From NCBI RefSeq assembly GCF_031085175.1, contig NZ_JAVHUY010000060.1:1-61288 (forward strand): DNA of 61,288 nt. The letters are read 5' to 3'. The first letter of the stretch is position 1. Each line of letters opens with the position of its first letter. The notes beneath the pieces are model-generated. The model did no database searches. It had not been told where the DNA came from and saw only the letters and a program-made list of their open reading frames with translations. A program made the position numbers and the translations under genes. This DNA comes from Phytohabitans maris (GTDB lineage: Bacteria > Actinomycetota > Actinomycetes > Mycobacteriales > Micromonosporaceae). This document shows, piece by piece, positions 54,160 to 57,477 of the stretch.

Positions 54160-54165
54160 GTGCCC

Positions 54166-55365
54166 GTGCCGATCGACCGCGATGCGAATAGAACCGCCGC
54201 CGCCAGCCTGGCCGGCCGCGCGGGCGTGGTCGGCTCGCCCGCGCGCACTGTCAGCGCTGGAGCGGCCGCCGCGCCAGGCCCGGCCGCCGGCCCCGCACCG
54301 GGAGGTGATCCCCTGCGCGCCAATCTGGCGTTGATGGCGCCAGGCACCGCCCTGCGCGACGGGCTGGAGCGGATCCTGCGAGGCCGCACCGGCGCGCTGA
54401 TCGTCCTCGGCTACGACAAGGTGGTCGAGTCGCTCTGCACCGGCGGCTTCCCCCTCGACGTCGAGTTCTCCGCCACCCGCCTGCGCGAGCTGTGCAAGAT
54501 GGACGGTGCGGTGGTGCTCTCCAGCGACGGCACCCGCATCGTGCGGGCCGCCGTCCACCTCATGCCCGATCCGTCCATCCCGTCGGAGGAGTCGGGCACC
54601 CGGCACCGTACGGCGGAGCGGGTCGCCAAGCAGACCGGCTTTCCGGTCATCTCGGTCAGCCAGTCCATGCGCATCATCGGGCTGTATGTCAACGGGCAGC
54701 GCCACGTCCTCGACGACTCGGCCGCGATCCTGTCCCGGGCCAACCAGGCGCTGCAGACGCTGGAGCGCTACAAGCTGCGCCTCGACGAGGTCTCCGGCAC
54801 GCTCTCCGCGCTGGAGATCGAAGACCTGGTGACCGTGCGCGACGCCGTGGCCGTGGTGCAGCGGCTCGAGATGGTCCGCCGGATCGCCGACGAGATCGCC
54901 GGATACGTGGTGGAGCTCGGCACCGACGGCCGCCTGCTCGCCCTCCAGCTGGACGAGCTGATGGCCGGCGTCGACGCCGACCGCACGCTGGTCATCCGCG
55001 ACTACCTGCCGGCCGGGCGCAAGGCCCGCACGCTGGACGAGGCGCTTGTCGAGCTCGACCTGCTCTCCGCCACCGAGATGATCGACCTGGTGGCGGTCGC
55101 CAAGGCGATCGGCTACCCGGGCGCCTCCGACTCGCTCGACGCGGCGGTCAGCCCGCGCGGGTTCCGGCTGCTGGCCAAGGTGCCGCGCCTGCCCGGCACG
55201 GTCGTCGACCGGCTGGTGGGCCACTTCGGGAGCCTGCAGCGGCTGCTCGGCGCCACGGTCGAAGACCTGCAGGCCGTCGACGGCGTGGGCGACGCGCGGG
55301 CCCGCGGAGTGCGCGAGGGCCTCTCCCGCCTGGCCGAGGCATCCATCCTGGAGCGCTACGTCTAG
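54166..55365 (+). CDS. disA: DNA integrity scanning diadenylate cyclase DisA
   Basis: A 399-residue protein making c-di-AMP from two ATP while scanning DNA. The N-terminal DAC domain holds both catalytic motifs, [13 protein letters not shown] (DGA) and [22 protein letters not shown] (RHR). A linker helix bundle follows, then a C-terminal helix-hairpin-helix DNA-binding domain ([34 protein letters not shown]). A poorly conserved ~50-residue extension precedes the DAC domain. GTG 54166 is preferred over GTG 54160 because of the -10 spacing. An IS110 element lies behind it. Confidence 0.95.
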
Positions 55366-55473
55366 CCGACCGTCATGCCGCCCCGTGCCCGGCCCGACCG
55401 GTGCTTTCCCACCGCGGAGGGTGAGGCCGCGGGAGCAACGGTCTGGACCACGACGGACAGAGATGATGTTTGT

Positions 55474-55558
55474 GAGCACCTCCCGCCGGGGTCTGACCCA
55501 ACGACGGACTGACTTCGGGTCTTGGCGAAGATTTGTCGGCTCCGGTCGGGAGGTGCTC
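55474..55558 (+). ncRNA. Candidate IS110 bridge-RNA region with long stem
   Basis: GAGCACCTCCCG (55474-55485) and CGGGAGGTGCTC (55547-55558) form a perfect 12-bp stem around 61 bases. Inside is a further GACCC/GGGTC stem with a large loop. It lies 125 bases upstream of the transposase start, in the orientation of the transposase. IS110-group elements encode a bridge RNA with two internal guide loops in exactly this 5' region (established for IS621). The structure fits, but loop-to-target matching was not possible here. Confidence 0.5.
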
Positions 55559-55683
55559 GTGCACTGGCTGGACGTGGCGTTGTGACCTAATAGGAGCCTG
55601 GCCAGAGGCCCCATCTCTGTCTTGTCCGCGTTGCCCGGCTGGTGCGTGCCGCCTTGCCCACCGTGACGAACGACAGGACGACG

Positions 55684-56754
55684 ATGCCCTCTATTACACC
55701 TGACGAAGCCGCGATCGAGGTCGTGGGTGGGATCGACACCCACCAGGACACGCACACCGCGGCGGTGATCGACCTGGTCGGGCGGGTGCTCGGCACCGAG
55801 CAGTTCCCCGCCACGACGGCCGGCTACACGGCCCTGCTGGCCTGGATGCGCCGGCACGGCCAGCTGCTCCGGGTCGGTGTCGAGGGCACCGGCGCCTACG
55901 GTGCGGGACTGGCCCGCCTGTTACACCAGCAGCACGTCGAGGTGATCGAGGTCGACCGCCCGGACCGCAAGACCCGCCGCTTGGCAGGCAAGTCCGACCC
56001 AATCGACGCCATCGCGGCGGCCAAGACCGCGTTGGCCGGCGAACGCACCGGCACACCCAAGCAACGCGACGGCCGCGTCGAGGCCCTGCGCAACCTGCGG
56101 GTGGCCCGGCGCAGCGCGGTCGAGCAACGCGCCGACACCCAACGCCAGATCAAAACCCTGATCGTCACCGCCCCCGACGACCTACGCGCCCGGCTACGCG
56201 GCCTGGCCGTCAAAAAGTTGATCACCACCTGCGCGAACCTGCGTCCCGACCGGGCCGACGCCGCCAGCCCGGCCACCGCCGCCAAGCTCGCCCTACGCAC
56301 GCTGGCCCGCCGCCACCAACAACTGTCGGTCGAGATCACCGACCTGGACGAACTGCTCGACCCCCTCGTCGCCGCCATCAACCCCGCCCTGGTCGCCGTC
56401 CACGGCGTCGGCGCCGACACCGCAGGCCAACTACTGGTCACCGCCGGCGAAAACCACGACCGGCTCGCCTCCGAAACCGCGTTCGCCATGCTCTGCGGCG
56501 CCGCCCCACTACCCGCCTCATCCGGCAAAACCACCCGCCACCGGCTCAACCGCGGCGGCGACCGACAGGCCAACGCCGCCCTCTACCGCGTCGTACTCAG
56601 CCGGCTGCGCTGGGACCCCAACACCCGCGCCTACATGGAACGACGCACCAAAAACGGCCTATCCAAGAAAGAGATCATCCGCTGCCTCAAACGGTACGTC
56701 GCCCGCGAACTCTACCAAATCATCACAACAAACGATCTTGACCTCGCCGCTTGA
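55684..56754 (+). CDS. IS110-family transposase
   Basis: A 356-residue DEDD recombinase. N-terminal RuvC-like residues are visible: Asp in VVGGIDTHQDTHTAAVID, Glu in VGVEGTGAYGAGLAR and the Asp pair in GKSDPIDAIAAAKTAL. The C-terminal Tnp_20 domain has HGVGADTAGQLLVTAGENHDRL, FAMLCGAAPLPASSGKTTRHRLNRGG with the catalytic-Ser region, and ANAALYRVVLSRLRWD. The ATG at 55684 is preferred; GTG 55642 is in frame upstream. The frame is intact, so the element may be active. Confidence 0.95.
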   Translation: MPSITPDEAAIEVVGGIDTHQDTHTAAVIDLVGRVLGTEQFPATTAGYTALLAWMRRHGQLLRVGVEGTGAYGAGLARLLHQQHVEVIEVDRPDRKTRRLAGKSDPIDAIAAAKTALAGERTGTPKQRDGRVEALRNLRVARRSAVEQRADTQRQIKTLIVTAPDDLRARLRGLAVKKLITTCANLRPDRADAASPATAAKLALRTLARRHQQLSVEITDLDELLDPLVAAINPALVAVHGVGADTAGQLLVTAGENHDRLASETAFAMLCGAAPLPASSGKTTRHRLNRGGDRQANAALYRVVLSRLRWDPNTRAYMERRTKNGLSKKEIIRCLKRYVARELYQIITTNDLDLAA

Positions 56755-56790
56755 CATCCATAGGAGCATCATCGCGGTAGCTCGAATCTT

Positions 56791-57477
56791 TTAGGTGAGG
56801 GTGAGCTTTACCGGAGTGCTGAGGTCGGTGCCGAGGCGGCCGAAGACCTGGTATTCGCCGGGGCTGGGGGCGCTGCCGGTGGCCGCGCCGTTTTGGCAGC
56901 CGGTGCTCTGCCGGCCGTTCCAGGTGACCTGAAACTCCATTTCGAGGTTGCGCGGGAACGGCTTTACATCCGAGCCGCGGTAGGTGCTGCAACGGTCGGA
57001 GGACCAGATGACCTGCGCGCCCTTTTTGATGTAGATCTCCTGCTCGTCCGGACCGACGTCGCGGCTGCACTCGCGGCCGGACTCGTTCTTGATGCGCAGC
57101 TTGATGACGATGGTCTGGCCGGCGGGCGCGTTGGTCAGGCTCGGCACCGGCGTGACCTTGATCTCGGCGTCGGTGCAGCCGTCGGCGGGCGGCGCGACGG
57201 GAGCGCCGGTCGTGGCCGCGGGTGGCGCTATCGGGGCGCCGGTGGCGGGATCGTCGGACGGGGGCGGGGGAGGCGACTGCTCGGCGTCCGGCGTGGCTGG
57301 GTCGCCGCCGGTGTCGACCGTCGGGGTGCTGGTGGCGCCGGTCTTGCTCGCCCCGGATCCGTCACCGCCGCGACAGGTCGTGAAGAGCACCAAGAGGACG
57401 ATGAAAAGGGCACCGAGCACAATGGCGCGACGCCGCCAATAGACGGCGGAAGGAAGAGGACCAACCGTCAGTCTCAT
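56791..57477 (-). CDS. Membrane-anchored secreted protein of unknown function
   Basis: A 228-residue protein. One N-terminal membrane helix (~16-34, RRAIVLGALFIVLLVLFTTC) ends in a Cys. A long Pro/Thr/Ala spacer (~40-95) leads to a beta-sandwich domain (~100-228) with four Cys (DGCTDAEI, RECSRDVG, SDRCSTYRG, STGCQNGA). The fold resembles immunoglobulin-like, DUF4232-type domains (IVIKLRIKNESG, GEYQVFGRLG). The IS110 element lies directly behind its stop. No function can be assigned. Confidence 0.65.
   Translation of the reverse strand: MRLTVGPLPSAVYWRRRAIVLGALFIVLLVLFTTCRGGDGSGASKTGATSTPTVDTGGDPATPDAEQSPPPPPSDDPATGAPIAPPAATTGAPVAPPADGCTDAEIKVTPVPSLTNAPAGQTIVIKLRIKNESGRECSRDVGPDEQEIYIKKGAQVIWSSDRCSTYRGSDVKPFPRNLEMEFQVTWNGRQSTGCQNGAATGSAPSPGEYQVFGRLGTDLSTPVKLTLT

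Follow-up and report, generated by a model that had tools for sequence, protein, structure and literature searches.

What splits a dispersed repeat downstream of disA in Phytohabitans maris, and how was that repeat found? We addressed this question within a window of 61,288 nucleotides, namely positions 1 to 61,288 of contig NZ_JAVHUY010000060.1, to which all positions below refer. The insertion is an intact IS110-group element of 1,312 bp on the + strand. Very probably it is an insertion sequence whose bridge RNA reads the repeat through its target loop and the element's own joined ends through its donor loop. The neighbouring disA gene (54160-55365; Pfam DAC and DisA-linker) lies just upstream on the same strand as the element; its stop codon ends 93 bp to the left of the element, and the gene is untouched by the insertion.

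Three lines of evidence fixed the ends of the element: the split repeat, an orthologous site in P. suffuscus that lacks the interruption, and termini that are alike in related elements. From the window alone, the ends are ambiguous by 2 bp and a CA core fits; in many relatives, however, the right-hand base after the C is not A, and the ambiguity is narrowed to a single base, the C common to both ends at 55458 and 56770. Since A opens the element in the compared relatives while the right-flank base varies, this A belongs to the element. Relatives begin with AGAGATG or AGTGATG (or AGTGAGG, AGAGAGG) and end with GGAGCATC regardless of the right flank, and because these termini are kept whatever that flank is, the element is placed at 55459-56770; the sequence-only reading of this DNA had advised that other copies be sought for exactly this purpose. 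At the same locus in P. suffuscus, the repeat runs uninterrupted between the same two genes, disA and a reverse-strand gene downstream, with neither hairpin nor transposase (L118), so the hairpin lies inside the element, a point on which that reading could have failed. At the orthologous locus in the other four same-genus genomes examined, repeat and element are both absent.

The architecture is that of the IS110 group rather than the IS1111 group. The repeat list of the window holds no inverted repeat joining the two ends, and there is no target-site duplication beyond the short core. In place of a long right end with RNA and long subterminal inverted repeats, the right end measures 16 nt, and the predicted RNA is held by the long non-coding left end of 225 nt (to the ATG at 55684). 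The features are collected in Table 1.

Table 1. Features of the element, its predicted RNA and its target site (window positions)
Feature	Position	Strand	Remark
Left part of interrupted dispersed repeat	55410..55458	+	at least 42 further genome matches
Left target (LT), ACGACGGAC	55450..55458	+	9/9 identical to guide 55501-55509
IS110-group element	55459..56770	+	1,312 bp including one copy of shared base C
Predicted bridge RNA region, two stem-loop domains	55459..55650	+	fold and compensatory changes
Right donor (RD), AGAGATG, left end	55459..55465	+	complementary to RDG CATCTCT
GATGAT, -10-like box	55462..55467	+	17 nt from TTGACA across circle junction
Target-binding-domain stem, 5' arm (predicted)	55474..55485	+	perfect pairing; compensatory changes in relatives
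Left target guide (LTG)	55501..55509	+	co-varies with left flank
Right target guide (RTG)	55525..55529	+	complementary to RT2-5; co-varies in relatives
RTG triplet GAT	55530..55532	+	putative core-pairing G and handshake AT, complementary to donor ATC; GAT in 45/45
Target-binding-domain stem, 3' arm (predicted)	55547..55558	+	perfect pairing; compensatory changes in relatives
Left donor guide (LDG), ATAGGAGC	55590..55597	+	identical to 56760-56767
Right donor guide (RDG), CATCTCT, then putative core-pairing G and handshake TC	55612..55621	+	complementary to 55459-55465
DEDD transposase	55684..56754	+	356 aa from ATG; D18, E67, D105, D108, S280
TTGACA, -35-like box	56751..56756	+	would be joined to left end in circular form; 39/41 right ends
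Left donor (LD), ATAGGAGC, in right end	56760..56767	+	identical to LDG
Right part of same repeat	56771..56792	+	continues uninterrupted copies
Right target (RT), ATCGC	56771..56775	+	complementary to RTG at 4/5

The open frame of the transposase is uninterrupted from 55642 to 56754, and the ATG at 55684 is its likely start by our choice. The protein matches DEDD_Tnp_IS110 (PF01548, 1.6e-25) and Transposase_20 (PF02371, 4e-15), and scores 175.1 bits against a cut-off of 140 for NCBIfam NF033542, 'IS110 family RNA-guided transposase'. Thus the complete DEDD transposase proposed from the letters is corroborated by frame, domains and family model, with a DEDD RuvC-like domain followed by a C-terminal Transposase_20 domain that holds a conserved serine. 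The five residues named in Table 1 were assigned by motif and fall in stretches aligned to IS621; we take them, partly on general grounds, to be the catalytic ones. Their roles are in part adopted from PMC11208158 and PMC11187229. The recombinase of IS621 (PDB 8wt6), likewise of the DEDD and serine kind, is homologous to the protein (4.1e-11), as is that of ISCro4 (PDB 9t56, 1e-6), for which the best aligned stretch spans only residues 214-348 of our transposase.

The predicted fold of the left end resembles that of a bridge RNA, with a loop in each of two domains. Both the perfect 12-bp stem and the inner stem (GACCC at 55495-55499, GGGTC at 55517-55521) described in the sequence-only reading are present upstream of the transposase, and folding of the 5' region, suggested there as a check, yields two stem-loop domains for the 192-nt left end at -90.3 kcal/mol (z -3.17; none of 200 shuffles as good). 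In an alignment of 29 of the 45 distinct insertions defined below, 96.2% of the cells of 54 pairs are paired, compared with 34-43% when the partners are slid. Changes on both sides occur in 19 of the 54 pairs against a shuffled mean of 6.5, and none of 500 shuffles reaches this number, although related sequences can exceed every shuffle in such a test. Fold and compensatory changes thus strengthen, at the level of sequence, the earlier proposal of a bridge-RNA candidate. Two internal loops carry guides to target and donor, for both strands, and no Rfam family matched at gathering score.

Several relatives vary in the arrangement of these parts. The left end is tandemly duplicated over about 20 bp or more in L037, L099, L105 and L127, the duplication in L127 including the guide region. 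Five loci (L136, L144, L146, L148 and L149, from G441 and G666) show the donor-loop pattern with no transposase match in the fetched locus; four of the five are in one genome, three of these within 205 bases of a contig start, and the loci are either RNA-only remnants or assembly breaks. In L044 (1200-2960; Microbispora amethystogenes), an insert carrying a 543-aa reverse-strand ORF separates the predicted bridge RNA from the IS110 transposase. By eye, we take this ORF to be an ISL3-like transposase; since it looks like a transposase, the insert is probably a nested element, and a cargo gene between RNA and transposase was rejected. By their coordinates, L126 and L143 (G369) belong to the same contig as L044.

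To compare guides with flanks, 75 loci with a transposase match were collected, of which 64 have the left-end motif. Among the 11 without it, L108, L109 and L140 show the donor-loop motif and L044/L126 carry the RNA further upstream, while the others hold no donor-loop motif within 420 nt, or 3,239 nt for L047. Guides in elements with GACTGACTGAC were read in a register 4 nt later, and L127 and L137, for which the script returned no guide, have one matching at 8/9 by eye. Merging of duplicates left 45 distinct insertions, the rows of the counts below.

The LTG, read before a constant TGAC, equals the nine bases to the left of the element in full in 31 of the 45 insertions, at 8/9 in 12 and at 7/9 in two; two P. 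suffuscus copies match at only 7/9. With one insertion for each of 28 distinct guides, and without L035 (flank cut), 185 of 196 variable positions match, whereas shuffled pairing gives 101.9 (sd 5.8, maximum 131) and none of 20,000 shuffles as high, a significance that permutation overstates because related insertions are not independent. The signal spans -9 to -3, position -10 being at chance (6/28, null 6.2), and target positions -2 and -1 are invariant and hence uninformative. L044, missed by the script motif and outside these statistics, matches at 9/9. The RTG lies five to nine bases before TGTC, on one antidiagonal; positions directly beside TGTC were tried and gave no signal. Excluding 5 rows without a usable right flank, it agrees with the right flank at 21 of 30 positions (RT1-3, 10 distinct RTGs; null 9.1; 0/20,000), and the P. 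flavus RTG fits at 3/5.

The donor side is matched in the same fashion. The LDG is identical to the LD in 37 of 41 rows and differs by one base in the other four, the right end having escaped the motif in 4 of the 45 rows (L052, L055, L101 and L130; L101 has GGAGGATC). The third base of the element is A in 28 rows and T in the other 17, and its RDG partner changes with it in 45/45, perhaps reflecting few events. RD position 6 forms 26 pairs, 12 wobbles and 7 mismatches with the RDG over the 45 rows, and position 5 fails to pair once. That the loops fit target and donor, as had been suggested from the sequence, is therefore borne out by both target guides and by the fit of the donor guides to the ends; lack of complementarity between loops and flanks was to count against it, and the matching found is strong. 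The same reading had noted TAGGAGC twice, at 55591-55597 and 56761-56767, as a possible core repeat. Both copies are there; their role as core does not hold, because the split repeat and the relatives put the ends elsewhere and the copies fit the left donor guide and the left donor, respectively.

Joining of the ends would also bring the two promoter-like boxes together. TTGACA-N17-GATGAT or -GAGGAT is found in 38 of 41 junctions, with TTGACA overlapping the end of the coding region, which suggests that the joined ends of a circular form make a promoter. Such a promoter at joined ends has been reported for the IS110 family by Durrant et al. (PMC11208160).

How much sequence do target and donor share at the crossover? 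The end-finding motifs required C at target -1 and ATC at the donor, but neither A at target -2 nor GAT in the RTG. Position -2 is A in every one of the 45 targets and T in every one of the 41 donors; ATC ends all 41 right ends found, by a motif that itself holds ATC, and L101, which this motif missed, likewise ends in ATC. Because target -2 and donor -2 differ, the two seem to share only one base next to the crossover, suggesting a working core of one base. Positions -2 and -3, which differ between target and donor, look like handshake positions. Opposite target -3, the RDG has a complementary base in 44/45, the failure being L102; counted once per guide, 27 of 28 fit against 20.1 expected (0/20,000 as high), and four of the five targets without G at -3 are compensated by the RDG base. 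The fit also fails in L044, where a T in the target faces a C in the RDG. In L140, missed by the left-end motif, -1 is T rather than C, the left end being preceded by GAT where the others have GAC; variation at -1 may therefore exist in one branch, and GAT likewise closes the guides of L127 and L130.

Handshake covariation as such is known. In IS621, once the strands have been exchanged, the bases that adjoin the core in either loop pair with the opposite DNA, and covariation at position 7 is reported over hundreds of orthologues (PMC11208158). A conserved CT core, with a less conserved first base, is described for IS621 and its orthologues (PMC11208158), whereas in our set -2 is A in the 45 targets and T in those donor ends that were found. 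In the available portions of the literature, the CT core is stated for IS621 and its orthologues and is not met as a rule for the whole family.

Put together, these observations suggest the following cycle. The element would leave as a circle whose joined ends provide the promoter, and the bridge RNA would be transcribed from the left end, as its structure and covariation indicate. Bound by the recombinase, this RNA would read the two sides of the dispersed repeat with the LTG and RTG of its target loop, and the joined ends of the element with the LDG and RDG of its donor loop. The DEDD/serine recombinase would then catalyse the exchange of strands beside the shared C.

The repeat into which the element has inserted is abundant in its host, a fact beyond the reach of the sequence-only reading, which had just the window to go by. 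BLAST with the left flank (55410-55458) gives at least 42 further matches in the genome (the best 40 of 790 candidates scored), and a 25-base pattern of the repeat matches 234 times, its reversed form 0 times. Across six Phytohabitans genomes the matches number 234 (own), 467, 392, 58, 22 and 427, compared with 0-2 in 54 of 55 other genomes; reversed-pattern controls give 0-2 per genome. The remaining genome, G755, from the same order and another family, has 13 matches of a diverged form, near-identical copies of a related 25-mer, GGCCCACCGCCGACGTCGCGGCAGC, and the repeat family may therefore predate the genus or extend beyond it. The same right half occurs with alternative left halves, CGCGGAGGGTGAGGCCGCGGGAGC and one of GTTTCCCCGGGG type (L061-L074), and this mosaic suggests a mobile or composite repeat. 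A REP/RAYT origin was rejected, PF01797 (Y1 REP-associated transposase) having 0 matches in the own genome; it is present in 5 of 14 control genomes. All eight Phytohabitans copies of the element found (five in P. flavus, two in P. suffuscus and this one) lie within the repeat in one orientation, and three same-genus genomes give no element match at threshold. Among the open-licence matches listed, no paper is by its title about a Phytohabitans repeat.

Such a target might also be chosen by the protein, or through a DNA hairpin in the repeat, with the left-end structure serving only transcription or translation control. In the fold of a repeat copy from L027, ACCGCG-GACGT-CGCGGT, the 5-nt loop indeed contains the insertion point, and a preference of insertion sequences for REP sequences is known (PMC1525189); the repeat folds are, however, not clearly better than those of shuffled sequences, 27 of 200 being as good for this copy and 61 of 200 for the window's own joined site. 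Choice by the protein agrees poorly with the variety of sites used by related transposases, where each site is matched by the 9-nt guide of the element that occupies it, or with a guide match that stops at -9 and is accompanied by fitting RTG and handshake bases. We consider recognition of this kind very improbable.

The LTG and the left flank form near-direct repeats about 50 bp apart, as expected if the flank had been copied into the element after insertion by template switching or gene conversion. Copies within one genome, however, carry one and the same guide although their sites and outer flanks differ (L091/L110/L114, L093/L111/L115 and L097/L113), L097/L113 retain mismatches that copying would erase, and the RTG and the RDG handshake bases, which lie elsewhere in the RNA, also fit, and we hold this explanation to be very improbable too. 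Decay is a matter of present activity and not of identity: RNA and protein could be intact in sequence while the element is no longer mobile here. The genome holds a single transposase of this kind despite 234 candidate repeat sites, which speaks for decay; the open frame with all catalytic residues, the intact ends, the perfect LTG-LT match and the intact promoter spacing point to an element that may still move, and we regard loss of mobility as rather unlikely, though well worth keeping in mind. An RNA-guided element accordingly remains our reading of the locus.

The likeness to IS621, an IS110-group element of E. coli, extends, as far as the sequence shows, to a long left end that would hold the RNA, a pair of internal loops, a 9-nt LTG, a circle-junction promoter, handshake guides and a dispersed-repeat target, REP in the case of IS621 (PMC11208160, PMC11208158). 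The repeat and the RNA sequence differ, and our test of the RTG took in five positions past the core. ISPpu9, ISPpu10, ISPa11, ISRm19, ISRm22 and ISPsy8 likewise insert into dispersed extragenic repeats (PMC1525189), in other hosts and at other repeats, whereas the present host has no PF01797 match. Related elements with different target guides are represented by ISEc11/ISXne4, a case of natural reprogramming, and by ISEc21 (PMC11187229); the ISEc11/ISXne4 pair belongs to the IS1111 group, while our set comprises 28 distinct guides in one IS110-group clade together with a change of target class. Insertion into REPs (PMC1525189) and natural reprogramming (PMC11187229) were thus already known. 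Judged by its sequence, the element is ordinary in kind, with unusually clear covariation between guide and target.

Across the clade, the targets fall into more than one class. TGA or TAA stands just before the crossover C in 32 of the 45 insertions, and 22 of the 30 stop-type targets with enough upstream DNA terminate an open frame 100 codons or more in length, compared with 39 of 176 TGAC and 14 of 55 CTGAC controls in the same flanks; the closest control, CNNCTGAC, is a small one and lies nearer to the targets (6/15). This gene-end bias fits guide choice as well as selection after insertion, and the two cannot be told apart. Stop-codon-directed insertion of IS110 elements does not appear in the titles or abstract openings of the open-licence matches listed, nor in the accessible portions of PMC2516522 and PMC5658596. 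In a tree of 34 transposases (7 broken and 4 identical proteins dropped; midpoint root, some forks open), the six Phytohabitans rows that target the repeat cluster together (97/95) amid stop-targeting ones, and because of this nesting the shift to the repeat looks derived. The tree thereby supports a guide change that moved the Phytohabitans clade from gene ends to the repeat.

Tentatively, and with somewhat more doubt than conviction, we propose that this is a bridge-RNA clade with a one-base shared core at -1. On this one-base-core reading, positions -2/-3 (mostly GA in the target, AT in the donor) would pair with the other loop's guide only after strand exchange, because they are complementary to that guide. 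Its guides would home on stop codons (the last codons, TGA and the C), leaving the gene whole, and in one branch a change of guide would have redirected the element to a repeat whose abundance, in the genomes searched, is confined to the host genus. The set offers a natural retargeting series, in which related recombinases come with 28 distinct guides that, with few exceptions, match the sites of their own elements, and in which the target class changes once. It could serve as an actinobacterial bridge-RNA set for testing guide change in nature, the share of the right guide and the shrinkage of the core to one base. The stop-codon preference, if guide-driven, would be a way to insert without breaking genes.
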